64,000 nt of DNA from Cristatella mucedo (taxonomy: Eukaryota; Bryozoa; Phylactolaemata; Cristatellidae): assembly GCA_009760855.2 (NCBI GenBank), contig WPIO01000162.1, positions 1 to 64,000 of the forward strand. The letters run 5' to 3'. Positions 24,235 to 58,364 of the stretch are shown in pieces. Numbering within the stretch: the first letter of the stretch is position 1; every line of letters starts with the position of its first letter. The notes beneath the pieces are model-generated. The model had not been told where the DNA came from, searched no databases, and worked only from the letters and a program-made list of their open reading frames with translations. Position numbers and translations under genes: made by a program.

Positions 24235-24430
24235 AGGCGAAACGTTAGACATACTCTTTCTCTCTCTCCCTGCCACTTTCGAGGTACGGTTGAGCAGCCT
24301 TTGTAGCACAAGGGGATCCATCACCACATCAAACAATATGGGCGACAGGGGTTCGCCCTGCCACTCCCCTGCCCCCGGCCAGGAAAGGGTCGAGCATCTT
24401 AGAGCCAAGGCATTGTACGGTCGAGTTGTG
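24235..24430 (-). mobile_element. R2/Hero-type LINE RT fragment at the array's left border
   Basis: The minus strand encodes EWQGEPLSPILFDVVMDPLV, the RT block that precedes the catalytic YxDD motif. It ends on its upstream side at GTACGGTCGAGT (24415-24426), directly before copy 1 of the tandem array begins. Confidence 0.65.
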
Positions 24431-24608
24431 GTTCGCTGAGCTAAAATGACGGATATCAATGCCGACTCGCGAAGGAACCGGAGCCGACAAAGCGTTCGGA
24501 GCCAATCGCGCTGTAGCAGCTACCTGAACACGCCAACAGACGCCGTCTTTCTGTCTGGTACCAGACTGCGGCAGTAACGAGCGCGGTACGCACGAGCTAA
24601 CGATCTAT

Positions 24609-35235: not shown

Positions 35236-35237
35236 CG

Positions 35238-36145: not shown

Positions 36146-36159
36146 AAGTACCAAGAATA

Positions 36160-36578
36160 TAATATAATGATAATAATAATAATAATAATAATAGTAACAT
36201 TTGACATAGCGCCCTCAGATTACTCGATCTCTTTCTTTTTGCTGCCAACATATAGCCATTCCCTGACTTGCTGCAAACGTATAGACTTATAGACACCTCC
36301 GTGACTCGACCACATTTAACATAAATTAAAAACGAACCAATTTATCACCGCGTTGAGTGGGTCCCTGTGATTCGTCCTTTATGTGCTGACACTGTCCGAA
36401 CTGCCAGTATGTTTACCCTTGCATATCACCCCTAACCGTGTTTTCTTGTTGTTTATCGAGCACGCTACCACTAGCCACCCGATCAGCGTTCCTTTGCAGC
36501 AAATGCAAAACACCTAGAAAGAGACTGAGTTCTCTGAGTGCGCTTTATCAAGTGCGTTATTATTATTATTATATAGAG
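36160..36578. mobile_element. Two L2 LINE 3' ends in opposite orientation, array copy 1
   Basis: 36160-36245 (minus) begins with ATAATAATAATAATA, then AGCGCCCTCAGATTACT. 36250-36578 (plus) starts near CTGACTTGCTGCAAAC, includes GTGGGTCCCTGTGATTCGTC, the 3' untranslated region and the terminal stem, ending in an ATT repeat. A head-to-head pair of this kind suggests two insertions at nearly the same place. Counterpart at 49410-49826. Confidence 0.7.
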
Positions 36579-36799
36579 ATGCCGATGCGATAAGGAATCA
36601 ACTCACGTTAGGCGGTCCAGCTGCCCGACTGGCTAACCGTTGGGCAATGTATGATGAACAGAACGGCACGAGCATTATTATTGCATTTCAATATGCTAAA
36701 AGCAATAGACTTGTCTTAGTGAATCGGCGCTTCATGCAATAGAGTTTATTAACCTCATTTATAGAAACACACACACACGGCAGTCACTTCGTTTGCTTT

Positions 36800-37849
36800 C
36801 CGATTACAATGCAAGCAGCAGTCGGACGCAGAACTGATCTCGCGCCTTTCGACAGGTCGAGCCGCGCCCGAAGCGCGTGCGTGCTGAGCGCTCGCCGCTA
36901 ACCGCCAGCTCACTCGGGCAGCGGAGACGGCTGGCCGCCGCCGTACCAGCGCTGCCGCGGCTCCAGGCGGCCGCATGAGCGGCCGGTCGCACTCGACTCT
37001 GCCTCCGCCAGCTGACAGGTCGGCCGCTGCGGCCAGGGCAGCCGGTCGCGGCGCCGCTGCCGCTCCGTCGGTCGGTGCCTGGAAGACAGGGCAGGCAGTC
37101 GGGCCCGACCAGCGCCGCCGACGCGCTTTGTCTGAGCACGCGGCAACCGGCGACGGTCCGACGTAAGCAGCCGGCACCGCGTCCCTCTGACGCCGATCGG
37201 CCGTCCAGCGGTCTTCCTCGTCCTCCTCCTCCTCCGACGTTAACAGAAGCGTCGCCAGCGCACTCGTGACGGCGGCGGCGGCGGCGTCGCAGCGACGCCG
37301 GCCGCCCGGAAGCGCCGCGCTCGTCGCGGCCAATCGAAAGCCGCGCCCTGTCGCGCCGCTTCGTCCTTGTCCCACGCCGCGGCGAACAAGTTGCGGCGAA
37401 CAAGTCGCGGCGCGGGCCGCTAGACTAACGCACCCCGCCGCCGCCTCCGGCGACCGCTCGAGCCGATGCGAAGCGCGCCTCCCGAGCTCAGTCGAGGTCT
37501 TTGCGCGAGCTCCGCCTCCGGCCTCGCTCTGCCGCCCGCCCGTCAGAGGAGCCGGGCGAGCGGCGCTTCCGGGCGCCTCGGGCGACTCCGCGTCGCGGCT
37601 GGCGACCAGCGCTCCCCCTGTGGCATTCTTTCCGTCGGCGGCGGCGCCGCCGCCGACTCCGCAGGCGATAGCGGTGCGTCCGCGCTCGTCCGCTATCGCC
37701 GCTCGAGGGCTGCCGTACGCCGCGGCGAGAAGACAGCGCTCGAGGCCCCACAGAGGACCGTCGGAGCGCACCGCCATTCGCACGAAGTCGCCTCCGGGCT
37801 CTGACAGGTGGCGCCGTTCGCGGCCGAGGTTTGCTGGTTCGCCTGGAGC
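36800..37849 (-). CDS. GC-rich candidate host exon, locus A (array copy 1), unknown protein
   Basis: A GCATTTTAG acceptor precedes 37849. Reading in phase from there gives an open frame through 37783 to about 36755 (342 codons counted from the GTG at 37783), rich in Ala, Arg and Gly. Near its start is DGPLWGLERCLLAAAYGSP, which the diverged locus B (57000-58175) shares as DGPLWGLEPCLLAAAYDHP with mostly synonymous codon changes. A second shared block (ESSA...CGRLEP, near 37000-36920) is in another frame here, so locus A seems frameshifted relative to B between about 37060 and 37000. An acidic EEEEDEED run lies near 37225. The donor site and true 3' end are unknown, and the last codons depend on a CA-repeat. 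I do not recognise the protein; it could be a pseudogene. Confidence 0.5.
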
Positions 37850-38039
37850 CTAAAATGCACGATAGGATCAATGCCGACTCGACCGAAGTGAACCGGTAGC
37901 CGAGAACAGCGTTCGGAGCCAATAGCGCTGTAGCAGCTACCTGAGACACGCCAACAGACGCGCGTCATTTCTGTCCTGGGCCTAACACGTACTGCGGCAG
38001 TTAACGCAGCGCCGGTACGCACGAGGACTACTATCTATC

Positions 38040-38180
38040 GCCGAGCTAGTTTGGCCCAGTGGTTAAGGTGCTCGCCCCGACCAGGGTCTGGACGAGGTCG
38101 AGGGCTCGAGCCCTCTGCCATAAGTGAAGCGCCTGAATAGAGATCGAGTTCTCTTAGGGTGCTATAGAAATGCATAATAT
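38040..38180 (+). mobile_element. SINE family A, array copy 2
   Basis: GCCGAGCTAGTTTGGCCCAG head, GGTTAAGGTGCTCGCC, GAGGGCTCGAGCCCTC and the L2-like 3' stem, ending ATGCATAATATT. Intact compared with the copy-1 counterpart. Confidence 0.85.
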
Positions 38181-38898
38181 TATCTATTATCGACAAGAGA
38201 AGTCCTTACGATCAATTTTTATAGTGTCATTAGAAGTACCAGATTTAAATCCGGTTGCTTGGCACCTCGCTCAATGAGAGGCCGGAGCCGCGGGTGCACG
38301 GCTACGAACACGGTAGACAGACACCTTTCTTCGACGTGTACGTAAAAGCACGCAAGAAGACGATCATAGCTACCAGGATTTATTCGATGCTAGCGAGCAC
38401 GTAATCATGCGCAGTCTGTCAGTGAACGCTGGCTCGCAGGAGAGAAAAAAGCAAAATATTTCACTCGGGCGGAAGGAATGCTGAGCGGATCGGGCTCGTC
38501 ATCCTCTGACATTAACGAGGTGCAAGGTCAAAATCGCGTTCGCGCCTCACCTCAGCTCCAGCCAGGCACGCTTCGCTCACCGACCGCTCTGCCGTCGACT
38601 TGTGCGACAAGCGCGGACGTCTCTCCACCCTGTACCCGCTCACTTTCGACTTCTTCCGGTTGCCCGCTCGGAAGAGTCCGGAGGCGGCGGCGGCGTTCCG
38701 CCAGCGGCAGGTGCTGACGGTTCGGTCCCGAACCGGTTGCTCGGCATCCGTCCGCTTTGGCGGGCATTCGGCAGCGCCGACGTAGCGCAGCTGTGCGTCA
38801 GTGCTGACGTCGTTCGACGGCCGAGCCGCTGCGGCGGCCGTGACGGCGCGCTCGCCGTTGGGCTGACTCCTTAGCGTAGGCGCGCGCCGATGCCGGTG

Positions 38899-39272
38899 CT
38901 AGAGACGCCTGCGCCTCAAAATCGTTGCCGGCGCTGGAGCAGGGCTGGACGCTTGAGTATGTGCCTGGGCATCTCTCAGCGAACGCCTTCGCAATGCAAT
39001 GGCATCGGCGTCGGCTGCTGCGTCGGCCATGGCAGCGGCCCACCATTCAATCTTGGATTCGGACGCGGCCTCGGAACAGCTAGCGTCGGGTTCAGGATCG
39101 GCGCAGACGTCGGAGTCGACACGGGCACTGGGATCGACAAGGGCATGGGGGTCGTTAGCGATTTCACCAGCAGCTGCGTCGTCTGCTGCAGCGTCGGCAT
39201 CGAGCTCATCTGCATGCGAAAGACCATCGCTCCCGGTAGCTGCGTCGGCAGCAGCAGTCGTCTGTCGTTCGA
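38899..39272 (-). CDS. Possible exon after a strong splice acceptor, array copy 2
   Basis: On the minus strand a long T run then ACAG directly precedes 39272. The following frame is open for about 124 codons to a stop at 38899 and is rich in Ala and Asp (LSHADELDADAAADDAAAG, later SESKIEWWAAAMADAA), not simply a GC-bias frame. It lies upstream of the GC-rich locus A on the same strand, so both could belong to one gene. No domain was recognised, no donor was identified, and long overlapping frames exist on the other strand, so this is tentative. Confidence 0.35.
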
Positions 39273-39330
39273 CTGTAAAAAAAAAAATAAACAAATAAAT
39301 ACTAGCCGATTTAGGAGCCTCTTTTCGTAC

Positions 39331-39457
39331 GGCGACTGAAGAGCCTTGACGGCTATCACCACCGCTTACAGTGGCGATATAGGATCGCTGACCACAGGAT
39401 TCGAACCCACGACCTTGGGGCCGAGGTCGTGAAAAGCAACCGCCTTACCTAGTGAGA
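39331..39457 (-). mobile_element. SINE family B, array copy 2 (absent from copy 1)
   Basis: Minus strand: GGTAAGGCGGTTGC A-box zone and GTGGGTTCGAATCC B box, then TATATCGCCACTG. Copy 1 reads directly across (TTTCGTAC then CCCTACGG). No clear target-site duplication flanks it, so copy 1 may have lost the segment rather than copies 2 and 3 having gained it. Confidence 0.75.
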
Positions 39458-40486
39458 CCCTACGGACTTTGCATCCTCATTCGGCACCGCGTCAGCCTCC
39501 ACTTTTGATGGTTGCCCCCCCCCCCCCCGATTCGGGATCTTCGTCGCTGTCGTCCTGGACGTATTTTTTGTCGCCATTTTACGATAGCCAAGCAATGCTT
39601 GAAACCTGTCACCAAAAAGTTCATCTATTTACCAATACATCTACGCATATACAACACATCTATAGACAAATGCGCTCATGTACAGCTACATCAACATACA
39701 ATTACATCTATATGCGTACCCTCCCGCGATGGCTTTAGCTAAAGGTGTATGAATAAGTACTCCTAATCGAACACATGTTTAATACCTTGCAAACAAGCTT
39801 CAGGATGAAGTCACCTGCACATCTTCTGCCGTCAGCTTGGTAGTCTGCGGGTAAACTTACTTACCCGAAGACTTTGTTCTCTACATTGCCAGGTCAGTGA
39901 TGGCTAACAACGAGGCTAACTGCAACATCAACTGGACGACTGCAGGCCTCGTTATGCAAAGCACGCTTGGAAATTTGCTAATGGCTTATTTTTAGACATT
40001 TCGTAGGTAAGTGCCATGAACAATAATTTGCCAAATCGGAACAAGTGATCTTCAAGAAATGCAAAAACATACAACCCACGCTGCAATGGCAGTGTAACTA
40101 ATATTTTTACTTCATCCATATGCATATCTCAGCAGGTGACTTGAGTGCATCGGGTAACTTGACTACAAAGATGGCAGGTAAACCAGAGTTCACTCGCAAT
40201 ATTCTCGATACAAATAATTAGAAATATTTGTGGCACATTTGCAATTACATATGGTAATAATCCAAGACCTGCTTAACACTTCTTTATAGTTTACTGAACG
40301 CAATGCAACTTGCAATTATAACAACGTGCCAGCCTGTTTAAGATAAATGCGGGAATTCATGAGATATCTACGGCGATAATTTATAAAATATTAAAGAAAT
40401 TGTATGACGCCCTACGAGAACCAAATGTCAAGGTCACTTTTTCGTTAAAGTGTCTTGTTAAATGTTAACCACCTTGTAAACCACAC

Positions 40487-40657
40487 TTACATGCTGACCC
40501 AGTGCATGTCGCCCCTAACCATGGTATTCATGTTGTTTATCAAGCATGATATTACTCACCATTCAATCGTGTTTCCCTTTGCAGCAAATGTAAAGCGCCT
40601 AGAAAGAGATTGAGTTCTCTGAGGGCACTTCATCAAGTGCATTATTATTATTATTAT
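40487..40657 (+). mobile_element. L2-type LINE 3' end, array copy 2
   Basis: Same landmarks as 26962-27137, including the full terminal stem and ATT repeat. Confidence 0.85.
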
Positions 40658-41344
40658 TAAATACCATCAAGTCAGGAAATGCCAACACGAGTGAAGAGAA
40701 GGAGCTCCAAGTGAGAGCGTGCGAACTTAAACCGGTCTAGATAAGGCCATGCCGAGCAGAGCTTAAGCGTCTCGGCAAGAGTTTAAAAAACCGTCTTTAC
40801 TGCTCCAGAGCGTTTCCGGTTTCAGAGCGCTGCCCATGCCACCTGCAGCCTAAGCTTTCCCAGAACGCTTGGCGTTAGCCGTCCTAACAGCTAACGCCTG
40901 CAATGTAGAAATACTTTGTTTTAGTCCGGCTTAGCTGTGACACAACTGCTGGTCATCTGGCTAATAGGCTGCAGGCCGAGGACTGAGTCGGACAGTGTCG
41001 ACATTAGTTACGCGTACATTACCATTCCTAGCCTAGGCCAAGCCAGCAGTGTGACGTCTGGCGACAGTCCTGTGCGACCGATGCTTTGGTGATTGAGCGA
41101 ATCGCGACACAGCCCACGCGTACAGCAGGAAGGACAAGAAGCCAAAAGCAAGCACACGCGGTAGTGACTTACGGATTCTCCGAACCAGCCAACACACTGC
41201 TCCAAAAAGTGGCCGTCTGTGGATTGCAGCACCGTAAGCCACGAATGAACTTTTAACAGTTATTACTTGTCTTACATAAGCACAATAACGTTGAATCACA
41301 GTTACCCACTAAATGCTGTGATAAATAGATGCGTATTCAGGATC

Positions 41345-41890
41345 TTTTCAATGTGGTCAAGACAGGGATGTCGCTACGAAAGTCGGAAGTCAGCTCTGAG
41401 CTTTGGGTGCTTACGAACTAAAGCCCCGGTCTCCAAATGAATGAAGGTTTGTACAAAGTATAGGTACACAGTTACATTCTGAAAAACATGAGGTACGATG
41501 CTTCACCTGGTGTGTGAATGGATACTTAGTTGTATTTGTTTTTTTTAACTCACAGGAGTCTGGTGCTGCGACAAGTAAACTTAATGAATGCTTTGCTGAT
41601 GCTCGATCTTTGATTTTTGCACATTTCCTTCAACTTGAGGATGATAAAACCAAACTACTAATCATCGGACATCTTAACTGTGCCCTAACAGACCATTATC
41701 GTATAATGGTTTGTTAATGGTTATAATGGTTGTATAGTGGATAATGGTTCGCCATAACAGACAAGCCAAGCTGCATAGTGTTAAACAAACTGTAATCGCC
41801 TGATGACAATAGCTGATAGACCTGCAACTAGCGAGTTACAGAAGTCGAGAAGGGATTCCACATCAGAGACTCAGCTAGCTTTGGCCATGA
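41345..41890. mobile_element. Mosaic of L2 LINE fragments, array copy 2
   Basis: Counterpart of 27815-28380, with the plus-strand FLQLEDDKTKLLIIG piece at about 41630-41670 flanked by minus-strand pieces. Confidence 0.65.
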
Positions 41891-42393
41891 GCAATTGCCG
41901 ATTGGCAAAGCACAACTGCAGATAGCTAGAAATAATGATATAAATAGATCACAGACGTTCGATGCATCAAGATCACAAATCATCTTAGGATAAACTGCAA
42001 AGACGCTGATCGCCTTGATGTTTCTTTCACAGATTTCAGCAAAAGAAACTCATAGTCGTGTAGCTGCGCTTGTAATCAACGCACGCAGAGATCGGCTAGA
42101 ACGCCACTGCAACTCGGCGCTCAGAGACACGAGAAATCCCCTAAATTCAATAAGGGTTCAGCGTCCTCAGCTGTCGTGGATCCCGATGATTTCCAGTCAA
42201 GTATACTTCCGTTAAGTTGACCTGGATATTAGCGTAAGAGCGTTGTCGTTGGCGCGTTCGCATAGGGAGATGCTGTACGCCCTGGTTTTGACAAGGGGTT
42301 GAAGTGCTCGCCATAAACGAACGAGATCAAGGTGAATACGACTGATGACCGAAGACGGGGGCTCAAGTCCTGGAGAGAGATCGTTCCCTTGGA

Positions 42394-42480
<87 letters not shown>

Positions 42481-42481
42481 C

Positions 42482-42673
42482 CTAAATAGCATTTGTGACG
42501 TAGACTATTCGGAAGTAAAAACTCATTTTGCCACTTTGCCTGCGGTTACATTGCTTGTTTAAAAAAAAATATATATATATATCTGTTATCTCCCAAAATA
42601 CTAAGCAGGCAATGTAACTGGATGCAAAGTGAGTATTTACTTCCGAATAGACAACGTCACCAATGCTATTTAG
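42482..42673. mobile_element. Fold-back MITE, array copy 2
   Basis: Same arms and loop as 28974-29166. Confidence 0.8.
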
Positions 42674-42956
42674 ATTTTTGGAGCTGTAGAACGTGGCATC
42701 ACGGACGAAGTGATCTGATATACATATGGATATAAGGATATATACAGTCAGCTCTCAACTTACAAATAAGATATAGACTGGAAAACCTGTCGTACGTAGA
42801 GTTTCCGTAAGTCGAGAATGGCATGTTACACGTTCTACTACGATACGTTCTGACAAGAAACAAAGAGGTAAGCAAATTGAATCTTTTTACAAATACATGA
42901 AAAATAAGAAGTAAATAAGAACAGGCGCCGGTACGTCCGAGGAGTACTATCTGTTG

Positions 42957-43040
42957 ACGAAATGGTTCGGCCCAGCGCTTAAGTTGCTCGCCCGACCAAG
43001 TTCTGGCTGAGGTCGAGGGCTCAAGCCCCGTGGAATATAC
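42957..43040 (+). mobile_element. SINE family A fragment, array copy 2
   Basis: Head only, as at 29450. Confidence 0.6.
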
Positions 43041-43564
43041 AAAGGAATATTTGTTTATAGTTTTTATTTAAACGATTCCATTTTCCGTAGGATACTCATT
43101 TTCTCCTAAAAGGTAATTGCTCTCCTTTGCTTCTTTTCTACTCCAGCAGGAGAGGTGTTGCTTTTGAATTTTTAAGCCATATCAAAATGAGCACAATATC
43201 AAATGAAGAAGTAAATATTATTAAATTAAGATTAGACTAGCGAATGGTAAAAAAATAATACAGAGAACAAGAACTCACGAGATCACTCTGAACACGTCTT
43301 GTCTCTAGCAAGATACTCGAGAAGGTGAGCCCTCGGTAGCCACAATGCATAGCGGTCACACGTCGTTGTGCGGATTTTGAGAGCTTTCATGAATACATTT
43401 GTATTTTCAATTTTTTTGCGTGACAGTGGCCGAGTTCTTATCTGAAAAATTTCCTTAGTCTAACCATCGTAAATAAGGTTTTAACTATTTGCGTATAGAT
43501 ACATATAAAAACGTGTGCAGTCGCAGCTGCATAGCGGCGGCTGAGCTGCTGAAGCAGGCAGGCG

Positions 43565-43785
43565 CCGCCACTAATGCTCCGAGCCGGTAGCCGGCTTGAA
43601 TCGCCATTGAGCACGGTCGAATTGAACAATGCAAGCGCGACGGGTACGGTCGAGTCCACATAGACCCTGGCTACGAAGTCGATCAGTTGTCGCTCGACTC
43701 CCAGGTGCTGCAGTGCAGCGAAGCCTCGATGAGGGTCGGCCACATGCGGAACACTGGGGAGCGCATTCTGCAGGTCCAGGAAGGT
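43565..43785 (-). mobile_element. R2/Hero-type LINE RT fragment, array copy 2 (shortened)
   Basis: Retains LDLQNALPSVPHVA to LIDFVARVY. The upstream QKGFLPG block is gone with the missing 252 bases, so the minus-strand frame now runs into unrelated sequence. Confidence 0.65.
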
Positions 43786-46601
43786 TTTCATGATCAGCCC
43801 CTGCATCGAATCAGCCTGGTGCTTATGGTGATTCCTCACCTGCTGTTTTTGTGTCAGCATGGCAATAGCATACCTGTGTATGCCCGAGGAATTGAGTTTG
43901 GATCAGTGTGGCGCTCGAAAGGTTGAAAGCACCAATTCGCTGCAGCACATGCCAACAGCAAACCATGCCACGAACCTTTCCACATAATGTAATGACACAC
44001 TGCGTGAACGTTGCGACTAACAGTGGTCGCAGGTTACTCTACCAGTCGTATGAGCTGAGAAATAAATTATTATGTCCCTGCTCACGGCTGCCAGCAGTCG
44101 AAGAGAAGGACAATACTGCTGGGGTGGCTGAGTGGACATTCCCTCCAGGCCTCTGCTCAATAAGGGATCAGGCCTGGCTGCTAATGAGCTGCCCACTGGG
44201 CAAGCAAAAGTTTTGAGTGGCAGGAGCTAACCAATGCTGTGGTGAGGTCATGCCCTCACCAGTGCAACTGAACTCTGATTGGCCAGCGTACCGGCTGCTA
44301 GCTTCAGCCTCTGCTGATTCTCACCCGTCAGCGATTTCTGCTGTCGCTGAAGGTCGAGTCAGCCAGCAGGCTCATTTGAACCGGTTTTTATCAATTCAGC
44401 TTGAACCAGCCGTGCTCTGCCTTCCAGGCCAGCGAATGCACCTACCAAGGTCCCCCAAAACTTTGCTAGTCTTACATCCACATTAGTATTCAGGAAGGCA
44501 TCTCCTCGAGCCTCAGCTCTGAGTCAAGCAGCCAGCTTATGCCTTTCTCAGTGTCATCGGTCATCGGAACGAGCTAGTAGCTCGTATTAAGCACGTATGC
44601 CATGTATTCAACCACTGTAATGGGCTCCGAAAATATTCGTAGTCTTATCGTGGTCCTCAAGCAGAGCTGCAGTCGATCTTATGTTTTTGGTCGTGCTGGG
44701 TCTGCTTGCCCCGACCCTTCTTATTGCAACAGATTATCAAATGTGGGCTAACTTGCCTAAGCCAAGAACTGGTCTGCACTCAGATTCGCTTGAGCTGAGC
44801 AAAGTTGGGTGCAATGGCGACATGATTCTCATAATTGCCTTTGTGCCTGCACTATAGCAGTATTTTTTTACAAATAAAAGAAATAATTGAAAATCTTATG
44901 GCCATCTAGTCGATTATAGGAGTTTTTGAAAGGAGTATTTTAAAATACATGAGAAGTCTACCCACCACTAGCGCCACCCGACAATATTGAAGCCGTGGCG
45001 AGCTGAAAGTCAGACTTTTGCCAAGCTTTAGAGTGCAGTCCTTAAGCAGGTCAATTTCTCTCGCAAAAGCAAGTCTGCACTCCCATCAGTCCTGGCCTGA
45101 TGCCTTGGGCTCGGTTGTAGGCCACGAACTAATTCTCAGGCAGCTCTGGGATCCGTCGGCCGTGCAATGTGATGGAAGCAGGCACGGCCTCCACACCTTG
45201 GCTGGTGATCGGGCAGCACTTGTCCGGCCGGAACTGACTTACCTGCTCGTGGCTGTCCACCATGCCATCAACAAAGCCCTTTTCTGAGGCAGCAGCACCC
45301 CCAGCTGCCCGCAATTTTTCACAGCCTTTTCGGCACCCTAGAACAGCTTGTAAAGCTTGGGCAAAAGCATGTTGGTGCAACAGTAACTGGCATGCATGGT
45401 TCGCCTATACGTTATTCAACTTAAAAGTACATCAGGATTGTCAAAGCACAACCAACTATATTCTGCAATGATTGATGTGCTTTGGCTGCTGAAATTCACA
45501 CGAAGAATGCTCTGCTTTGCTGTCTGTTCTTGTTGCAGAATCATAACCTGTGAGGCCGTGGCATCCATTCAAGTGGACAAGCATCACGAGCTCGAAGTTT
45601 CAGTGCGAGATATCGACTGGTTTTGAGGAAGGACCACGCCGGTCGCCCTATCGATGACATTTGCCTGCACTTTAGCGATGCCTTGCCTTTGCAAAAGACA
45701 AATTTGCAGAATCCACATTCACAAGAAAGGCCCGCTCCGGGAGCTGCTGTTGGGCAGCTTGGCCGTTTGCTTCAGACGCTTTGCTGGCTGCTGGGGCCGG
45801 CTCTAGCTCCAGCAAAAAGAGCCTCGTTCTTGTCCCGAAGTCTCCGTCCTTCCCCGGAAGTGAGGCCAGCTGCTGCCTTTTCTCCTCGGAGGCATGACTG
45901 CATGCCATGTGGTTAGTCTCTGCCGGTTGGTGTTGCAAGCCCCAAAATGGCTCGGCACGATGCCATGCCGGATATCCGGCCTCGTTAAGCTTCTTGCCTC
46001 ACATCTACAGAGCTTTCATCTGTGGACTGGAAAGAGCAGAGGTGTCAAGAGTGGTGGCAACGGCCAGGAAGAACGTCGCCAAAACAACGCCATCGCTTGC
46101 GCCCTGTTTCCCCTCTGTACTGCCCTGCTTGTCGGCTGCTTCAGACTATGCTCTGCTTCGCCTTTCGCAAATGATTGCCAAACAACGAAGCCTGCTTGGT
46201 AACCCTCAACATCACAACAGGCCAGTAGACTACTTTTGGTTGGCAATGTCTGGTTTTTATCGCTTGTCCTGCTCAGCCGGGGCCCAGGGCTGCCAGCCCC
46301 AGTGATTGGAGGCCTGCGAGTTGAGAGCCTCCTCCTTGAGCTCAAGCTTGTGCACTAGATACTCCGAATAAAGTCTTATTCAGCCTGAAGGCTTGTCTTT
46401 GTTATTCGGGATTTTAAGGATTTCAATATTCAGGATTTTGTTATTCAGGATTTCCTAAATGTCAGTGGTAACTTGTATGTGTGTAGATATGCTACTTGAT
46501 CGGGTTCCAGTGCTGGTCGGCCTGGAGTGGTAGAACGTGGCTACTGACGACTACTCAGGCTCTGCTGAAGCTCACCACAGCCAACCCTAAGTGCAGATGG
46601 C

Positions 46602-46762
46602 TGACACTGTGCATGTCACCCCTAACCATTTTATTCTTGTTTATCGAGCAGGCTACTACTAACCGTCCGATCGTGTTTCCCTTGCAGAAAATATATAGCA
46701 CCTAGAGAGAGATTGGTTCTGAGGGTGCTTAATCAAATTGTTTATTATTGTTTCTATTAAGA
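46602..46762 (+). mobile_element. L2-type LINE 3' end, array copy 2
   Basis: Counterpart of 33345-33512. Confidence 0.7.
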
Positions 46763-46904
46763 TTTACCAGGCCAGTATACCACCAAGCAGTGGGTTACAT
46801 TAGTTGGTCGAGGCCAGAAGTACGAGTGGACCTATTTGAATGTAGTTTACCTGTATATGCAAGCCCGAATTTCAGCATGTATTATAGCCAGTAGGCAGAC
46901 TTGA

Positions 46905-47550
46905 TCATAAGAGCTGATGTGGTCATCTCGTGAAAGGTCTCTGGATCAGAAGACAGACTTACTAGCAAATGCACATAAAGATATGCTTGCAAAGCCGATG
47001 TGCAACGTTAGGCTTCCTAATTTTCGAGACACTTTGTTTGCTAGTAGCCAGTAAGTTGGCTTCAGTGTCGATATATTTGAAAACGTTTCCTGCCGTTCAT
47101 GTGGGGATGTCAGAAATATGTGCAAGAAGGGATTTAAGAGGACTCGACGTGCTTGGGGTTGAAGGAATCGAAGCACGGCTATTACTGGCAGTCATATGCA
47201 TGCAAGCGAAAGCCTAGATTTTACATGGCGATCATCAGCCAGATTCATTAACAATGAAGATATGCAGATAGAATACAAAACGGGTACGTACTCCGTACTT
47301 AAGAAGCTAGTCGAATGATCTTGTCTGTTCAGTCGAATGTCATTGTCTTTAGTAGCCCACTGTGATCAGATCTTAAACAAGGGCCACACCAATGATGCCC
47401 TGACCAGAAAGTGGGCACCTAGAAGGACGTTTTGATCATTAACATCCAGCACTACCGAAAGATAGAGCAGAAAAAGCAGAGAATTCATTTACTCGAAAAT
47501 TGCAACACCTGAAGCAATGCTTACTTTGTGCAGTGATTCAATATCCTGGG
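46905..47550 (-). mobile_element. L2-type LINE RT fragments, array copy 2
   Basis: Counterpart of 33655-34295, with the same gap and landmarks. Confidence 0.65.
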
Positions 47551-47757
47551 TCCTAAGGTTTTGTGGTGATTCTCGATGCACAGGTAGGGCACCCACTGTA
47601 GAATGAAGGCGTTTTGTTCGTGGTCAAATATGCACAATTTCCCAAGAGTAGAAGTCGTTAGCTAACAACTGAAGGAGAATGTTGATCTCTAGTGTGCGAT
47701 ATTTGTTGTGGGGTCATTCGCGAGATGCACGAGGAAAATGAGTGGTTCTTGTGTGTG

Positions 47758-47865
47758 CAGTGGCGATAAAGGGTCGCCCACCACACGAATCGAACCCACG
47801 ACCTCGGGACCAAGGTCATGAAAGCAACCGCCTTACCCAGTGTGCCATTACGGCTCAACAATAGC
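47758..47865 (-). mobile_element. SINE family B, array copy 2 second copy
   Basis: Counterpart of 34505-34615, with the same A- and B-box sequences. Confidence 0.7.
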
Positions 47866-48487
47866 CCATAGCCCTACGACAGTGTCCTAATCTCAAATTA
47901 GCCACAACTAACGGACTTACCGTAGACCAGCCGCCACGAGCGAGCGAACCACGAACACCAAATGAGTGACAGGGCGTTGCTTGAGAGAAACCTAGCTCTA
48001 CGGTTCGCTTAAATTAGATTTCGCAATTCATTAGGTCAGGCCTGCGAAAATTATAGCAACGCAATTATAACAAAATAGAAATTATAATTATAAGTAAAAA
48101 TATAAATAAATTACAAAAACTATAACAACGCAAGCCATGAATGAACCCAAAACCGTCAACAACGCGTGGCCTAAAGGCACGATCAAAGACAAACCACTAA
48201 GCTAAGATGAAGCTGATGAGAGTGCAGCAGTTGACTGGAGAGCAGCTAAATCCTGCTAATGAACCTTGAAAGCTTGCGTAACTATTTACCAGCAAGTTTC
48301 TCCAAGAGCTCGCTCGAGACAGCAACAAGAGTTGTGACTGACCAGCCAAAGACGAACGCACCGGGCCCGCGGTGCTCTCGTGACGACGGTCGACGGGTTA
48401 AGAGAGAGCACATAGACACCAATCGGCGTAGCGTTGAAGAAAACTTATCAGTTCATCTGAGAGGATGCTTGAAGAAAAGATTATTAC

Positions 48488-48625
48488 GCCGAGCTGGTTT
48501 GGTCTAGCGGTTAAGGTGCTCGCCCTGACCAAGGTCTGACTGAGGTCGTGGGCTCGAGCCCCGAGGCATATGTGAAGCGCCTGAATAGAGATTAAGTTCT
48601 CTTGGGGCGCTGTACAAATGAATTG
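48488..48625 (+). mobile_element. SINE family A, array copy 2 second copy
   Basis: Identical in all landmarks to 35238-35375. Confidence 0.9.
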
Positions 48626-49049
48626 ATTATATTAATTATCTCCGCCTTTGACTGATGCAAAGAGCAAGAACTAGAAAGTCAAGCGAGAAATATCCCGCTA
48701 AAGCATTTCCAGCCGGTAATAAATAATAGCAGTCTCGGCGATCTTGGGTGCGGCGTGGACCTTAACGTTTTCTTTCCGTATTGCTATATTTGCTATATCT
48801 GTATTGCTATGTGTATTGTTGTCTGTATATAAAAAAATCAACAATATAATAAAATATTTCCATAAAAGGATAGCATAAAATAATATAATAAATATAAGAG
48901 GTGCTGCTAAGCAAAATTTAATTTGCTACTCAAAAATTAAGACCTACCGGTCAATACCATCTTCGGTGAGTCATTGAGACGCTTCCGTAAAGTGTAACCT
49001 TCCCTGTCAACTCTGAGTGTCGGCAAAATAAGAAATTAACTGTTCTGCT

Positions 49050-49245
49050 GTTCTGCTGGCCAAAGTCAATTGAGCCTGTGCAGATCGGGGAGAAGTGGCA
49101 TAATTTACCCACCCCGACGCCTACGCCAATTAAGCCTTGCATCAGAGTTTCACACTCTCTGTAAGCTCCTGATTACATTAGCTGGTATACTAGCTGCTAG
49201 TGAGCTACAGAAGTCGAGACGAAATTCCGCATCAGCCACTCGCGT
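49050..49245 (-). mobile_element. L2-type LINE fragment, array copy 2
   Basis: Counterpart of 35800-35995. Confidence 0.65.
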
Positions 49246-49409
49246 GGCCTTTAGCAATTCCCGATCGACACAGCACAACTGCATATACAGTAGACTTCGC
49301 GTGTAAGAATGACGGACTTCGGAATACTCTGCTTACAAGTACGCCTATTTGCTGGCCCGAACACGTATTTATTCGAGGAGCCGAAGGCAGCTTGAAAGTA
49401 CCAAGAATA

Positions 49410-49826
49410 TAATATAATGATAATAATAATAATAATAATAATAATAGTAACATTTGACATAGCGCCCTCAGATTACTCGATCTCTTTCTTTTTGCTGCCA
49501 ACATATAGCCATTCCCTGACTTGCTGCAAACGTATAGACTTATAGACACCTCCGTGACTCGACCACATTTAACATAAATTAAAAACGAACCAATTTATCA
49601 CCGCGTTGAGTGGGTCCCTGTGATTCGTCCTTTATGTGCTGACACTGTCCGAACTGCCAGTATGTTTACCCTTGCATATCACCCCTAACCGTGTTTTCTT
49701 GTTGTTTATCGAGCACGCTACCACTAGCCACCCGATCAGCGTTCCTTTGCAGCAAATGCAAAACACCTAGAAAGAGACTGAGTTCTCTGAGTGCGCTTTA
49801 TCAAGTGCGTTATTATTATTATTATA
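49410..49826. mobile_element. Two opposed L2 LINE 3' ends, array copy 2
   Basis: Counterpart of 36160-36578. The ATA repeat is one unit longer here. Confidence 0.7.
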
Positions 49827-50054
49827 TAGAGATGCCGATGCGATAAGGAATCAACTCACGTTAGGCGGTCCAGCTGCCCGACTGGCTAACCGTTGGGCAA
49901 TGTATGATGAACAGAACGGCACGAGCATTATTATTGCATTTCAATATGCTAAAAGCAATAGACTTGTCTTAGTGAATCGGCGCTTCATGCAATAGAGTTT
50001 ATTAACCTCATTTATAGAAAAACACACACACACGGCAGTCACTTCGTTTGCTTT

Positions 50055-51107
50055 CCGATTACAATGCAAGCAGCAGTCGGACGCAGAACTGATCTCGCGC
50101 CTTTCGACAGGTCGAGCCGCGCCCGAAGCGCGTGCGTGCTGAGCGCTCGCCGCTAACCGCCAGCTCACTCGGGCAGCGGAGACGGCTGGCCGCCGCCGTA
50201 CCAGCGCTGCCGCGGCTCCAGGCGGCCGCATGAGCGGCCGGTCGCACTCGACTCTGCCTCCGCCAGCTGACAGGTCGGCCGCTGCGGCCAGGGCAGCCGG
50301 TCGCGGCGCCGCTGCCGCTCCGTCGGTCGGTGCCTGGAAGACAGGGCAGGCAGTCGGGCCCGACCAGCGCCGCCGACGCGCTTTGTCTGAGCACGCGGCA
50401 ACCGGCGACGGTCCGACGTAAGCAGCCGGCACCGCGTCCCTCTGACGCCGATCGGCCGTCCAGCGGTCTTCCTCGTCCTCCTCCTCCTCCGACGTTAACA
50501 GAAGCGTCGTCGCCAGCGCACTCGTGACGGCGGCGGCGGCGGCGTCGCAGCGACGCCGGCCGCCCGGAAGCGCCGCGCTCGTCGCGGCCAATCGAAAGCC
50601 GCGCCCTGTCGCGCCGCTTCGTCCTTGTCCCACGCCGCGGCGAACAAGTTGCGGCGAACAAGTCGCGGCGCGGGCCGCTAGACTAACGCACCCCGCCGCC
50701 GCCTCCGGCGACCGCTCGAGCCGATGCGAAGCGCGCCTCCCGAGCTCAGTCGAGGTCTTTGCGCGAGCTCCGCCTCCGGCCTCGCTCTGCCGCCCGCCCG
50801 TCAGAGGAGCCGGGCGAGCGGCGCTTCCGGGCGCCTCGGGCGACTCCGCGTCGCGGCTGGCGACCAGCGCTCCCCCTGTGGCATTCTTTCCGTCGGCGGC
50901 GGCGCCGCCGCCGACTCCGCAGGCGATAGCGGTGCGTCCGCGCTCGTCCGCTATCGCCGCTCGAGGGCTGCCGTACGCCGCGGCGAGAAGACAGCGCTCG
51001 AGGCCCCACAGAGGACCGTCGGAGCGCACCGCCATTCGCACGAAGTCGCCTCCGGGCTCTGACAGGTGGCGCCGTTCGCGGCCGAGGTTTGCTGGTTCGC
51101 CTGGAGC
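50055..51107 (-). CDS. GC-rich candidate host exon, locus A (array copy 2)
   Basis: Same acceptor (AG at 51109-51108), same reading frame and same DGPLWGLERCLLAAAY block as 36800-37849. One extra codon (a CGT/GTC repeat unit near 50507) distinguishes it. The far end differs because the CA-rich tract near 50025 has a different length, which extends the frame to 49941 here. That instability suggests that the real coding sequence ends or splices out before it. Confidence 0.5.
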
Positions 51108-51297
51108 CTAAAATGCACGATAGGATCAATGCCGACTCGACCGAAGTGAACCGGTAGCCGAGAACAGCGTTCGGAGCCAATAGCGCTGTAGCAGCTACCT
51201 GAGACACGCCAACAGACGCGCGTCATTTCTGTCCTGGGCCTAACACGTACTGCGGCAGTTAACGCAGCGCCGGTACGCACGAGGACTACTATCTATC

Positions 51298-51438
51298 GCC
51301 GAGCTAGTTTGGCCCAGTGGTTAAGGTGCTCGCCCCGACCAGGGTCTGGACGAGGTCGAGGGCTCGAGCCCTCTGCCATAAGTGAAGCGCCTGAATAGAG
51401 ATCGAGTTCTCTTAGGGTGCTATAGAAATGCATAATAT
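51298..51438 (+). mobile_element. SINE family A, array copy 3
   Basis: Same as 38040-38180. Confidence 0.85.
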
Positions 51439-52156
51439 TATCTATTATCGACAAGAGAAGTCCTTACGATCAATTTTTATAGTGTCATTAGAAGTACCAG
51501 ATTTAAATCCGGTTGCTTGGCACCTCGCTCAATGAGAGGCCGGAGCCGCGGGTGCACGGCTACGAACACGGTAGACAGACACCTTTCTTCGACGTGTACG
51601 TAAAAGCACGCAAGAAGACGATCATAGCTACCAGGATTTATTCGATGCTAGCGAGCACGTAATCATGCGCAGTCTGTCAGTGAACGCTGGCTCGCAGGAG
51701 AGAAAAAAGCAAAATATTTCACTCGGGCGGAAGGAATGCTGAGCGGATCGGGCTCGTCATCCTCTGACATTAACGAGGTGCAAGGTCAAAATCGCGTTCG
51801 CGCCTCACCTCAGCTCCAGCCAGGCACGCTTCGCTCACCGACCGCTCTGCCGTCGACTTGTGCGACAAGCGCGGACGTCTCTCCACCCTGTACCCGCTCA
51901 CTTTCGACTTCTTCCGGTTGCCCGCTCGGAAGAGTCCGGAGGCGGCGGCGGCGTTCCGCCAGCGGCAGGTGCTGACGGTTCGGTCCCGAACCGGTTGCTC
52001 GGCATCCGTCCGCTTTGGCGGGCATTCGGCAGCGCCGACGTAGCGCAGCTGTGCGTCAGTGCTGACGTCGTTCGACGGCCGAGCCGCTGCGGCGGCCGTG
52101 ACGGCGCGCTCGCCGTTGGGCTGACTCCTTAGCGTAGGCGCGCGCCGATGCCGGTG

Positions 52157-52530
52157 CTAGAGACGCCTGCGCCTCAAAATCGTTGCCGGCGCTGGAGCAG
52201 GGCTGGACGCTTGAGTATGTGCCTGGGCATCTCTCAGCGAACGCCTTCGCAATGCAATGGCATCGGCGTCGGCTGCTGCGTCGGCCATGGCAGCGGCCCA
52301 CCATTCAATCTTGGATTCGGACGCGGCCTCGGAACAGCTAGCGTCGGGTTCAGGATCGGCGCAGACGTCGGAGTCGACACGGGCACTGGGATCGACAAGG
52401 GCATGGGGGTCGTTAGCGATTTCACCAGCAGCTGCGTCGTCTGCTGCAGCGTCGGCATCGAGCTCATCTGCATGCGAAAGACCATCGCTCCCGGTAGCTG
52501 CGTCGGCAGCAGCAGTCGTCTGTCGTTCGA
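52157..52530 (-). CDS. Possible exon after a splice acceptor, array copy 3
   Basis: Same frame and acceptor as 38899-39272; the T run is slightly shorter. Same uncertainty. Confidence 0.35.
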
Positions 52531-52587
52531 CTGTAAAAAAAAAATAAACAAATAAATACTAGCCGATTTAGGAGCCTCTTTTCGTAC

Positions 52588-52714
52588 GGCGACTGAAGAG
52601 CCTTGACGGCTATCACCACCGCTTACAGTGGCGATATAGGATCGCTGACCACAGGATTCGAACCCACGACCTTGGGGCCGAGGTCGTGAAAAGCAACCGC
52701 CTTACCTAGTGAGA
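52588..52714 (-). mobile_element. SINE family B, array copy 3
   Basis: Same 127-bp segment as 39331-39457. Confidence 0.75.
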
Positions 52715-53755
52715 CCCTACGGACTTTGCATCCTCATTCGGCACCGCGTCAGCCTCCACTTTTGATGGTTGCCCCCCCCCCCCCCCGATTCGGGATCTTC
52801 GTCGCTGTCGTCCTGGACGTATTTTTTGTCGCCATTTTACGATAGCCAAGCAATGCTTGAAACCTGTCACCAAAAAGTTCATCTATTTACCAATACATCT
52901 ACGCATATACAACACATCTATAGACAAATGCGCTCATGTACAGCTACATCAACATACAATTACATCTATATGCGTACCCTCCCGCGATGGCTTTAGCTAA
53001 AGGTGTATGAATAAGTACTCCTAATCGAACACATGTTTAATACCTTGCAAACAAGCTTCAGGATGAAGTCACCTGCACATCTTCTGCCGTCAGCTTGGTA
53101 GTCTGCGGGTAAACTTACTTACCCGAAGACTTTGTTCTCTACATTGCCAGGTCAGTGATGGCTAACAACGAGGCTAACTGCAACATCAACTGGACGACTG
53201 CAGGCCTCGTTATGCAAAGCACGCTTGGAAATTTGCTAATGCTAATGGCTTATTTTTAGACATTTCGTAGGTAAGTGCCATGAACAATAATTTGCCAAAT
53301 CGGAACAAGTGATCTTCAAGAAATGCAAAAACATACAACCCACGCTGCAATGGCAGTGTAACTAATATTTTTACTTCATCCATATGCATATCTCAGCAGG
53401 TGACTTGAGTGCATCGGGTAACTTGACTACAAAGATGGCAGGTAAACCAGAGTTCACTCGCAATATTCTCGATACAAATAATTAGAAATATTTGTGGCAC
53501 ATTTGCAATTACATATGGTAATAATCCAAGACCTGCTTAACACTTCTTTATAGTTTACTGAACGCAATGCAACTTGCAATTATAACAACGTGCCAGCCTG
53601 TTTAAGATAAATGCGGGAATTCATGAGATATCTACGGCGATAATTTATAAAATATTAAAGAAATTGTATGACGCCCTACGAGAACCAAATGTCAAGGTCA
53701 CTTTTTCGTTAAAGTGTCTTGTTAAATGTTAACCACCTTGTAAACCACACTTACA

Positions 53756-53923
53756 TGCTGACCCAGTGCATGTCGCCCCTAACCATGGTATTCATGTTGT
53801 TTATCAAGCATGATATTACTCACCATTCAATCGTGTTTCCCTTTGCAGCAAATGTAAAGCGCCTAGAAAGAGATTGAGTTCTCTGAGGGCACTTCATCAA
53901 GTGCATTATTATTATTATTATTA
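53756..53923 (+). mobile_element. L2-type LINE 3' end, array copy 3
   Basis: Same landmarks as in copies 1 and 2, full terminal stem. Confidence 0.85.
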
Positions 53924-54603
53924 AATACCATCAAGTCAGGAAATGCCAACACGAGTGAAGAGAAGGAGCTCCAAGTGAGAGCGTGCGAACTTAAACCGGT
54001 CTAGATAAGGCCATGCCGAGCAGAGCTTAAGCGTCTCGGCAAGAGTTTAAAAAACCGTCTTTACTGCTCCAGAGCGTTTCCGGTTTCAGAGCGCTGCCCA
54101 TGCCACCTGCAGCCTAAGCTTTCCCAGAACGCTTGGCGTTAGCCGTCCTAACAGCTAACGCCTGCAATGTAGAAATACTTTGTTTTAGTCCGGCTTAGCT
54201 GTGACACAACTGCTGGTCATCTGGCTAATAGGCTGCAGGCCGAGGACTGAGTCGGACAGTGTCGACATTAGTTACGCGTACATTACCATTCCTAGCCTAG
54301 GCCAAGCCAGCAGTGTGACGTCTGGCGACAGTCCTGTGCGACCGATGCTTTGGTGATTGAGCGAATCGCGACACAGCCCACGCGTACAGCAGGAAGGACA
54401 AGAAGCCAAAAGCAAGCACACGCGGTAGTGACTTACGGATTCTCCGAACCAGCCAACACACTGCTCCAAAAAGTGGCCGTCTGTGGATTGCAGCACCGTA
54501 AGCCACGAATGAACTTTTAACAGTTATTACTTGTCTTACATAAGCACAATAACGTTGAATCACAGTTACCCACTAAATGCTGTGATAAATAGATGCGTAT
54601 TCA

Positions 54604-55155
54604 GGATCTTTTCAATGTGGTCAAGACAGGGATGTCGCTACGAAAGTCGGAAGTCAGCTCTGAGCTTTGGGTGCTTACGAACTAAAGCCCCGGTCTCCAA
54701 ATGAATGAAGGTTTGTACAAAGTATAGGTACACAGTTACATTCTGAAAAACATGAGGTACGATGCTTCACCTGGTGTGTGAATGGATACTTAGTTGTATT
54801 TGTTTTTTTTAACTCACAGGAGTCTGGTGCTGCGACAAGTAAACTTAATGAATGCTTTGCTGATGCTCGATCTTTGATTTTTGCACATTTCCTTCAACTT
54901 GAGGATGATAAAACCAAACTACTAATCATCGGACATCTTAACTGTGCCCTAACAGACCATTATCGTATAATGGTTTGTTAATGGTTATAATGGTTGTATA
55001 GTGGATAATGGTTCGCCATAACAGACAAGCCAAGCTGCATAGTGTTAAACAAACTGTAATCGCCTGATGACAATAGCTGATAGACCTGCAACTAGCGAGT
55101 TACAGAAGTCGAGAAGGGATTCCACATCAGAGACTCAGCTAGCTTTGGCCATGAG
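54604..55155. mobile_element. Mosaic of L2 LINE fragments, array copy 3
   Basis: Counterpart of 27815-28380. Confidence 0.65.
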
Positions 55156-55657
55156 CAATTGCCGATTGGCAAAGCACAACTGCAGATAGCTAGAAATAAT
55201 GATATAAATAGATCACAGACGTTCGATGCATCAAGATCACAAATCATCTTAGGATAAACTGCAAAGACGCTGATCGCCTTGATGTTTCTTTCACAGATTT
55301 CAGCAAAAGAAACTCATAGTCGTGTAGCTGCGCTTGTAATCAACGCACGCAGAGATCGGCTAGAACGCCACTGCAACTCGGCGCTCAGAGACACGAGAAA
55401 TCCCCTAAATTCAATAAGGGTTCAGCGTCCTCAGCTGTCGTGGATCCCGATGATTTCCAGTCAAGTATACTTCCGTTAAGTTGACCTGGATATTAGCGTA
55501 AGAGCGTTGTCGTTGGCGCGTTCGCATAGGGAGATGCTGTACGCCCTGGTTTTGACAAGGGGTTGAAGTGCTCGCCATAAACGAACGAGATCAAGGTGAA
55601 TACGACTGATGACCGAAGACGGGGGCTCAAGTCCTGGAGAGAGATCGTTCCCTTGGA

Positions 55658-55747
<90 letters not shown>

Positions 55748-55748
<1 letters not shown>

Positions 55749-55942
55749 TAAATAGCATTTGTGACGTAGACTATTCGGAAGTAAAAACTCATTTTGCCAC
55801 TTTGCCTGCGGTTACATTGCTTGTTTAAAAAAAAAAAATATATATATATATCTGTTATCTCCCAAAATACTAAGCAGGCAATGTAACTGGATGCAAAGTG
55901 AGTATTTACTTCCGAATAGACAACGTCACCAATGCTATTTAG
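55748..55942. mobile_element. Fold-back MITE, array copy 3
   Basis: Same arms as 28974-29166; the A run in the loop is a few bases longer. Confidence 0.8.
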
Positions 55943-56226
55943 ATTTTTGGAGCTGTAGAACGTGGCATCACGGACGAAGTGATCTGATATACATATGGAT
56001 ATAAGGATATATACAGTCAGCTCTCAACTTACAAATAAGATATAGACTGGAAAACCTGTCGTACGTAGAGTTTCCGTAAGTCGAGAATGGCATGTTACAC
56101 GTTCTACTACGATACGCTCTGACAAGAAACAAAGAGGTAAGCAAATTGAATCTTTTTACAAATACATGAAAAATAAGAAGTAAATAAGAACAGGCGCCGG
56201 TACGTCCGAGGAGTACTATCTGTTGA

Positions 56227-56310
56227 CGAAATGGTTCGGCCCAGCGCTTAAGTTGCTCGCCCGACCAAGTTCTGGCTGAGGTCGAGGGCTCAAGCCCCGT
56301 GGAATATACA
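56227..56310 (+). mobile_element. SINE family A fragment, array copy 3
   Basis: Head only, as at 29450 and 42957. Confidence 0.6.
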
Positions 56311-56829
56311 AAGGAATATTTGTTTATAGTTTTTATTTAAACGATTCCATTTTCCGTAGGATACTCATTTTCTCCTAAAAGGTAATTGCTCTCCTTTGCT
56401 TCTTTTCTACTCCAGCAGGAGAGGTGTTGCTTTTGAATTTTTAAGCCATATCAAAATGAGCACAATATCAAATGAAGAAGTAAATATTATTAAATTAAGA
56501 TTAGACTAGCGAATGGTAAAAAAATAATACAGAGAACAAGAACTCACGAGATCACTCTGAACACGTCTTGTCTCTAGCAAGATACTCGAGAAGGTGAGCC
56601 CTCGGTAGCCACAATGCATAGCGGTCACACGTCGTTGTGCGGATTTTGAGAGCTTTCATGAATACATTTGTATTTTCAATTTTTTTGCGTGACAGTGGCC
56701 GAGTTCTTATCTGAAAAATTTCCTTAGTCTAACCATCGTAAATAAGGTTTTAACTATTTGCGTATAGATACATATAAAAACGTGTGCAGTCGCAGCTGCA
56801 TAGCGGCGGCTGAGCTGCTGAAGCAGGCA

Positions 56830-56917
56830 GGCGCCGCCACTAATGCTCCGAGCCGGTAGCCGGCTTGAATCGCCATTGAGCACGGTCGAATTGAACAATG
56901 CAAGCGCGACGGGTACG
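56830..56917 (-). mobile_element. R2/Hero-type LINE RT remnant at the array's right border
   Basis: Only VPVALALFNSTVLNG and the following downstream codons remain before the array ends. Confidence 0.5.
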
Positions 56918-56999
56918 CTCGCCTCGCAAGGCATTAGAAGACACGATGCAGGCTAGGCGAATCGTCACTGAAGCAATAGTGGGAAAACTGCGTTAACAA

Positions 57000-58175
57000 G
57001 GTCAAGATATGCAAGACGGGTCACTTTGTTCACTTCCCGATTACGCTCGAAGCTGCTGGCTTCGTACTTCATAGCTCGGCTTTTGCCGGCGACGGCGCCA
57101 GACCGAGCAGCGGGCGCTCCAGCGGTGCCGAGAGGCCACGAGGGTCACGTGGGCTGCGGTCACGGAGCTGCTCGGTCGCGAGGGCTGCGACGACGGCTGG
57201 GCGCCGAACCGTCGCTTCCACGGCTCCAGGCGCCCGCAGAACGGGAGAGCAGCGCTCGACTCGGCCGCCACCTTTCCTTTGCATTTCCAGCATGTCGTTT
57301 GCGCGGCCGGCGGCCGGCGACCGTCGAGCGAGAAAGCTGGGCAGCCGGTCGCCGAGCCAGCGTCGGTGACCTCGCCTCGCCGGCCCGCGATATCGGCGGT
57401 CGGACCCGACGTCGCGTCGCCTACTGAAGCGTCGCCTGAGGCCAGAGCGGAGCTACGGCCGCAGGCTACCAGCCTCCGCCTCCGTGCGCCGCCGATCGGC
57501 CGGCCGCCGCCAGCGATCCTCCTCCGCCTCGGCCGTTGAGTTCCGTTAGGCTCCGCCAGCGCCCACCGCCGCTGCCCGTTTGTGCACCGCCATTGCTGCG
57601 CCGCCGTCGCATCGCCATTGACGCCGCGACGGCCAACGGCTCGGACGTCTCGCCATCGCAGAGCGACGAGTCGAGACGAACGAGTCGCCGCCGCGAGAGC
57701 TACGGCGGCTGCTGCCGCGGCGGCTCGACTACGGGGCGCTGCTGAAGGCACCGCCGAAGGCGCCGCGGGCTACCGAGCGCCACCCGGCGCCCACTACTGA
57801 CTGCCTCTGGCGCCATCGCAGCCAGCCTTCCGCCCACTTCATTCGCTCGCTGCTTTCCGCCGCCGCCGCGACGGCGCTCCACTGCCTGCCGCCTCCGGTG
57901 CAGGCGCCGTTGCCGGTTGACCGTTCCCATCTAGCCGCAGTGGCGGCGGCGGCGCTACCGCCTGCGATCGTCGGCTCCACCCTGCCGCTGCTGGTGGGTT
58001 GGAGCACATCCGACGTCGCCTCGCTAGGATGGTCGTAGGCCGCGGCCAGCAGGCAGGGCTCGAGGCCCCACAGTGGGCCGTCGGTGCACAAGGCCAGCCG
58101 CATTGAGCCGCCTCCACCGCTGGTCCCCGTTCGATTGAACGCTGTGACGACGAGGTCCAGCTCGCTTCCTGTCGC
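57000..58175 (-). CDS. GC-rich candidate host exon, locus B (diverged paralogue of locus A)
   Basis: A TTCATTTTATTAG acceptor precedes 58175. In phase from there, 24 codons lead to ATG 58103 and MRLALCTDGPLWGLEPCL. This frame ends at 57729. A second minus-strand frame (57041-57751) carries TGCPAFSLDG and later AAESSAALPFCGRLEP, both shared with locus A (TACPVFQAPTDG; ESSATGRSCGRLEP). Thus locus B is also frameshifted or spliced, but at a different place from locus A. Homology to A extends at DNA level across about 1.1 kb and slightly into the presumed intron (ACCGGTAG motif). Composition is Ala/Arg/Gly-rich. Function unknown. Confidence 0.5.
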
Positions 58176-58364
58176 CTAATAAAATGAAATGCCGGCAAAG
58201 ACCGATGGGATAACCGGTAGAATGGCGATAACCGGAAAGCCGACTTAGGATGACGAGCTTTCGCAGCCCGAGGTGTTCTGATGAGGGGGTTAGGCAAAAC
58301 TGGACTCGCAGTGGCGGAACTAGGGTGCAGGGGCTGCGTTTGCCACCCCCCTTGATAATAATAA
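58176..58364. other. Presumed intron or flank of locus B
   Basis: Short sequence between the acceptor and the first L2 tail. It shares a GACCGA...AACCGGTAG landmark with the stretch right of locus A. Confidence 0.35.

Follow-up and report, generated by a model that had tools for sequence, protein, structure and literature searches.

Two GC-rich islands in the bryozoan Cristatella mucedo as possible relics of a locally duplicated gene

Introduction

Two kinds of described sequence come closest to the locus considered here. Duplicated (unprocessed) pseudogenes are local duplicates in which short coding-like patches remain conserved, the reading frames are lost and recent change is neutral, and CpG islands are defined by high guanine-plus-cytosine (GC) and CpG content over about 1 kb. 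We analyzed a window of 64,000 bases (bases 1-64000) from a contig of the bryozoan Cristatella mucedo (WPIO01000162.1, here C69; 711,584 bases; GenBank assembly GCA_009760855.2, 572 Mb in 688 contigs), which carries two GC-rich islands, A and B, on its reverse strand. Island A lies within a tandemly repeated unit, and B adjoins the unit just outside it. An earlier note, made from the letters of the window alone, had pointed to a peptide common to both islands, DGPLWGLE(R/P)CLLAAAY, and had proposed past purifying selection on an unrecognised protein, possibly of a family expanded by the array. Below, the near copies are the A and B of the window, and the far copies are those of another A/B pair, which the same contig carries at a distance of about 200 kb. 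The lists of genome matches are lower bounds, and statements of confinement to the contig hold among the matches listed.

We tentatively favor the reading that A and B are relics of a locally duplicated gene. One GC-rich sequence of approximately 1.1 kb would have been duplicated locally and would have diverged into A and B. The ancestral gene would have had its exon or exons inside the island, and the two best conserved patches, blocks 1 and 2, would be the remains of its coding ends. A short core in block 1 would once have been translated, the TTTTAG and TTATTAG sites at the island borders would once have served as splice acceptors, and selection on the protein would since have ceased.

Homology of the two islands

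Block 1 aligns between A and B over 123 bp without gaps at 73% identity, and block 2 over 95 columns at 75% identity. The best ungapped score was 57 for the whole islands, where 60 dinucleotide shuffles reached at most 19, and 35 for block 2, where 300 shuffles likewise reached at most 19. A and B are evidently GC-rich islands of common descent, and this homology is restricted to the island. The flanks of A and B share 13 short matches upstream and 7 downstream, mostly overlapping repeats seen elsewhere in the window. Flanking exons common to A and B were considered and rejected, as these matches are short and look like dispersed repeats. No match at E 1e-3 was found between the GC-rich stretch at 14-16.2 kb and the islands, or between 38.0-39.3 kb and B.

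Both islands follow an acceptor-like site, TTTTAG in A and TTATTAG in B. The earlier note had placed these sites in equal phase, 66 and 72 bases before an equivalent codon, and this holds, the distances running to the codon aligned with the ATG of B. Measured to the GAC codon that opens the core, the distances are 87 bases in A and 93 in B, again in the same phase. Equal phase is expected by chance one time in three, and TTTTAG occurs 34 times and TTATTAG three times in the window, both strands counted. These acceptor-like sites near the island border may be homologous by descent.

Protein-level comparison of A and B

The peptides, their positions and the synonymous pattern described for A and B were borne out by alignment. 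Over the 16 codons of DGPLWGLE(R/P)CLLAAAY, six of the seven differences are synonymous. The 17-codon core that starts at GAC (A 37762, B 58082) holds 8 differences, 6 of them synonymous compared with 2.1 expected (nominal P 0.006), and the other five frames of the core gave P values of 0.36 to 1. Across the 41 codons of block 1, we counted 12 synonymous and 21 non-synonymous differences (9.0 synonymous expected; P 0.17). In block 2 (ESSA...CGRLEP), where the same pattern had been claimed, it is present in a milder form, with 8 synonymous and 9 non-synonymous differences over 20 codons (4.4 synonymous expected; P 0.05). The ratio of non-synonymous to synonymous divergence (dN/dS, by NG86) between A and B is approximately 0.08 in the core, 0.57 in block 1 and 0.32 in block 2 over these same codons, and so is not near 1 in either block. 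Of the six frames, the proposed one comes out best for the core, for block 1 and for block 2, and this is the strongest point for coding.

Because the core had been picked post hoc for looking conserved, the signal was also assessed by randomisation at fixed local divergence, in which the same substitutions were redistributed along A, bin by small bin, and the score was taken from whichever of the six frames did best. The protein score observed for block 1 was reached by 599 of 5000 randomised sets with 24-base bins and by 667 of 5000 with 48-base bins, and that of block 2 by 3395 of 5000. The synonymous signal is suggestive, without significance at fixed local divergence, and the case for A and B encoding a conserved protein is weak. 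As a caution, a short peptide common to two GC-rich sequences needs a test at fixed divergence, because in GC-rich DNA long frames stay open and the peptides they give are rich in Ala, Arg, Gly and Pro.

Reading frames and recent change

The distance from the GAC of block 1 to the CTG-GAG-CCG of block 2 is 796 bases in A of unit copy 2, 799 in A of unit copy 3, 836 in far A, and 853 in both B and far B. As none of these is a multiple of three, the two blocks do not share one frame without splicing in any of the five copies. Frame-breaking indels separate A from far A in the middle of the island, and the block-1 frame ends at different stops in B (148 codons, stop to stop) and far B (117 codons). 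A disabled frame of the kind seen in duplicated pseudogenes is thus present, through indels in the A copies and stops in the B copies.

Recent change was examined between near and far copies. Over 456 bp from the ATG, the two A copies differ by 2 synonymous and 7 non-synonymous changes (2.6 synonymous expected), a count that leaves out block 2, where some columns are misaligned at a 53-bp indel. The two B copies differ by 1 synonymous and 8 non-synonymous changes in the block-1 frame (2.3 synonymous expected) and by 4 and 7 in the block-2 frame (3.2 synonymous expected). Other frames are sometimes more synonymous (5 and 3 in frame 1 of A, 6 and 3 in frame 2 of B), which we take as the spread of small numbers. 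The near-far change fits an absence of protein constraint, with the proviso that the sites are few and could be polymorphism. The near and far copies have the same core in A and likewise in B, but a stretch of this length would be expected to hold few changes. Overall, the present-day copies do not look like working genes.

The proposal of past purifying selection stands in part only. The homology and the frame-specific excess in the core speak for it, whereas the fixed-divergence test, the neutral near-far change and the lack of a common frame speak against it. Likewise, change compatible with a dN/dS near 1, which the earlier note had named as telling against selection, was found between near and far copies and not between A and B in either block.

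Copies of the islands on the contig

A search of the genome with the DNA of island A gave at least seven matches, and all seven listed lie on C69: unit copies 2 and 3, the flank in copy 1 at 24.4 kb, far A (in two pieces, at 247.1-248.1 kb) and the two B islands. The family was likewise placed on C69 when the protein queries were A, B block 2 and B block 1, for which the best matches elsewhere had E values of 3.6, 0.02 and 0.53, respectively. On inspection of the listed protein matches, no convincing family member was noted outside C69. One locus, L026, has SS-x-x-LPFCGR in common with B block 2 by eye, and this was judged to be chance.

The tandem unit is 13.25 kb long, with copy 2 at 30516-43783 and copy 3 at 43784-56921, and may reflect very recent duplication, conversion or an assembly duplicate. 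Over the roughly 13,000 bases that align, 2 substitutions and some short indels set copies 2 and 3 apart; by piece, the substitutions number none in 1510 bases (adjoining upstream), one in 7301 (island-bearing) and one in 4203. The island in copy 3, at 50.0-51.1 kb, is near-identical to that in copy 2. Owing to this near-identity, the array copy at 51107, which had been offered as further evidence, is not independent of copy 2. The suggested expansion of a family by the array found no support either, as copies 2 and 3 are almost identical, copy 1 has neither block and B is not part of the unit. Between copy 1 and copy 2 we also noted, over 24418-25927 (1.5 kb), only 19 mismatches and as many as 57 gap openings, each of 1-3 bases; this first 1.5 kb has the look of long-read consensus sequence that was left unpolished.

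A second copy of the unit, of B and of the B flank lies about 200 kb away (C69:241.3-258.5 kb; loci L008, L009 and L010), and may be a segmental duplication or an uncollapsed haplotype. Its larger pieces are 94-98% identical to the near region, and near and far copies differ by approximately 1.2-2% in substitutions. At 38899-39282 (reverse strand) the window holds an exon-like stretch with an Ala/Asp-rich frame, following a long T-run and ACAG, which is mostly missing from the far copy.

Composition and searches

The flanks of both islands are mostly GC-poorer than the islands (GC 0.745 in A and 0.719 in B), and CpG observed/expected is 1.30 in A and 1.20 in B compared with 0.91 in the window. 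Both A and B show the high GC and CpG over about 1 kb that characterize CpG islands. Translated in the proposed frame, A would give a peptide dominated by Ala, Arg, Gly and Pro that also includes some Ser/Thr and acidic residues, and this frame of A has the best codon score of the six. The first 345 bases of B have GC of 0.66, 0.70 and 0.83 at codon positions 1, 2 and 3. Another GC-rich stretch of the genome, L031, carries an open reading frame (ORF) with GC of 0.77, 0.68 and 0.80 by codon position, inside which a stretch of 22 codons (0.59, 0.41, 0.64) is presumably kinase-like. Going by this ORF, GC-rich islands may hold exons in this genome.

Several candidates raised by the searches were set aside. 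A Pfam match to DUF3739 (E 0.082) was sub-threshold and in another frame of the B region. In the PDB there was a single match to each of two B frames (E 0.37 and 0.61) and none to A; these were taken as chance. Conserved RNA structure was rejected, since all four block segments fold no better than their shuffles (z -0.56 to 0.58). DGPLWGLE was not found in the literature searched. Matches to transposon proteins only, another outcome named in advance as unfavorable, did not occur, A and B being without such matches.

Weighing the explanations

Several results weigh against A and B as relics of a gene, beginning with the randomisations of both blocks. The putative ATGs, at 37777 in A and 58103 in B, stand at different aligned positions. 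GC at codon positions 1, 2 and 3 of A (0.78, 0.72, 0.75) is unlike that of 25 CCT chaperonin exon stretches from the same genome (4596 bp; 0.57, 0.38, 0.48), and by codon score the proposed frame of B ranks second among the six in part 1 and third in part 2. The family that was to be recognized by database search did not emerge, as Pfam, NCBIfam and PDB gave no convincing match to the A and B frames. Finally, the genome searches gave no convincing match outside C69 to an intact parent or relative gene.

Close behind, as a serious and only somewhat less probable explanation, comes the alternative that A and B are non-coding GC- and CpG-rich islands, promoter-like or like untranslated regions, that were duplicated once. 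In that case the patches would have been kept as DNA elements or have survived by chance, and GC-rich codons would have produced the peptide by accident. The non-significant protein score at fixed divergence, the flat codon-position composition of A, the raised CpG and the neutral near-far change are all consistent with this, as is the conservation of a 25-bp motif past the block-2 stop in A, although in A that motif lies inside the long ORF of the block-1 frame. Against it stand the rank of the proposed frame, best of six in both blocks, and the nominal P value of the core. Moreover, six loci with CCT exons had no such island in the stretches examined, which gives no indication that promoter islands are usual in this genome. 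A live pair of paralogous spliced genes we regard as unlikely. Their product would be a short protein, an orphan of this animal lineage, with DGPLWGLE-x-CLLAAAY at the amino end and CGRLEP at the carboxyl end, spliced across a fast-changing GC-rich middle. The frame-specific core, its lack of near-far change in A and in B, the acceptor-like sites in equal phase and the three-base length of the sole near-far indel inside island B would suit this explanation. The neutral near-far changes, the different stops of B and far B and the unaligned start codons do not, and by eye no donor site common to A and B was noted after block 1. If it were true, the islands would represent a lineage-specific protein family without known relative. 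It is very improbable that A and B belong to a transposable element. Their flanks are repeat-rich, and a reverse transcriptase like that of long interspersed nuclear elements (LINEs) lies nearby; dispersed copies were not found, however, the family being on a single contig in the searches made, and we set this origin low for that reason. The A DNA matches and the weak protein matches elsewhere agree in this, and a dispersed repeat internal to the unit, unlike A and B, has thousands of candidates in the genome. Should relics of a duplicated gene be the correct explanation, the locus would add a further case of a gene that was duplicated locally and then decayed within a GC-rich island.

Features and setting

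The features of both islands are collected in Table 1.

Table 1. Features of islands A and B, in window coordinates.
Feature	Position	Strand	Remarks
Island A (unit copy 2)	36783..37855	-	From acceptor-like TTTTAG to the 25-bp motif common to A and B; GC 0.745 over 36901-37850
A block 1	37673..37795	-	Core codons from GAC at 37762 down to 37715
A block 2 (ESSA...CGRLEP)	36916..37009	-	Frame differs from that of block 1
A 25-bp motif	36783..36807	-	84% identity with B; past the block-2-frame stop of A
A acceptor-like TTTTAG	37850..37855	-	Putative function
A block 1, unit copy 3	50931..51053	-	Nearly identical to copy 2; coordinates transferred from copy 2
A block 2, unit copy 3	50171..50264	-	Coordinates transferred from copy 2
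Unit copy 1	24418..24574	-	Flank and last ~30 bp of island; without block 1 and block 2
Island B	57020..58182	-	From acceptor-like TTATTAG to the 25-bp motif common to A and B; GC 0.719 over 57051-58160
B block 1	57993..58115	-	Core codons from GAC at 58082 down to 58035
B block 2 (ESSAALPFCGRLEP)	57182..57272	-	Alignment with A block 2
B 25-bp motif	57020..57044	-	Starts at the stop codon of the B block-2 frame
B acceptor-like TTATTAG	58176..58182	-	Putative function

Many repeats surround the islands, among them the LINE-like reverse transcriptase at 59323-60633 (Pfam RVT_1, E 8.4e-26). The dispersed repeat inside the unit (40480-40660, about 180 bp) recurs several times in the window and has at least 4568 first-look candidates in the genome, 40 of which were scored. 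The ORF at 14489-15028 on the reverse strand, which gave no Pfam match, presumably resembles the endonuclease end of R2-like retroelements. Nine further ORFs of the window showed no Pfam domain, the family scan being confined to the ORFs chosen, and no gene adjoining A or B was identified among the ORFs scanned. The window gave no Rfam matches at gathering score.

Elsewhere in the assembly, contig C688 (21,008 bases) carries COX1 open over 517 codons with mitochondrial code 5, and likewise with codes 4, 9 and 14, which very likely marks the genome as that of an animal. COX1-like pieces with TGA codons at five loci on large contigs (L048, L049, L050, L051 and L052) are probably nuclear copies of mitochondrial DNA. 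On a 1.5-Mb contig, L053 (C3:162547-164052) is a chaperonin gene whose 549 codons run in a single open frame, in contrast to the CCT exons, which are split, and this contig is possibly bacterial.

Comparison with known systems

The islands depart from duplicated pseudogenes in one respect: no intact parent was found for A and B, and for this reason the pseudogene label is one that we infer. They depart from CpG-island-like DNA in the frame-specific synonymous excess of the core and in the absence of an adjoining gene among the ORFs scanned. They resemble such DNA in their length of about 1 kb, their GC of 72-74.5%, their CpG above expectation and the flat codon-position composition of A. With duplicated (unprocessed) pseudogenes, A and B share local duplication, short coding-like conserved patches, lost frames and neutral recent change.

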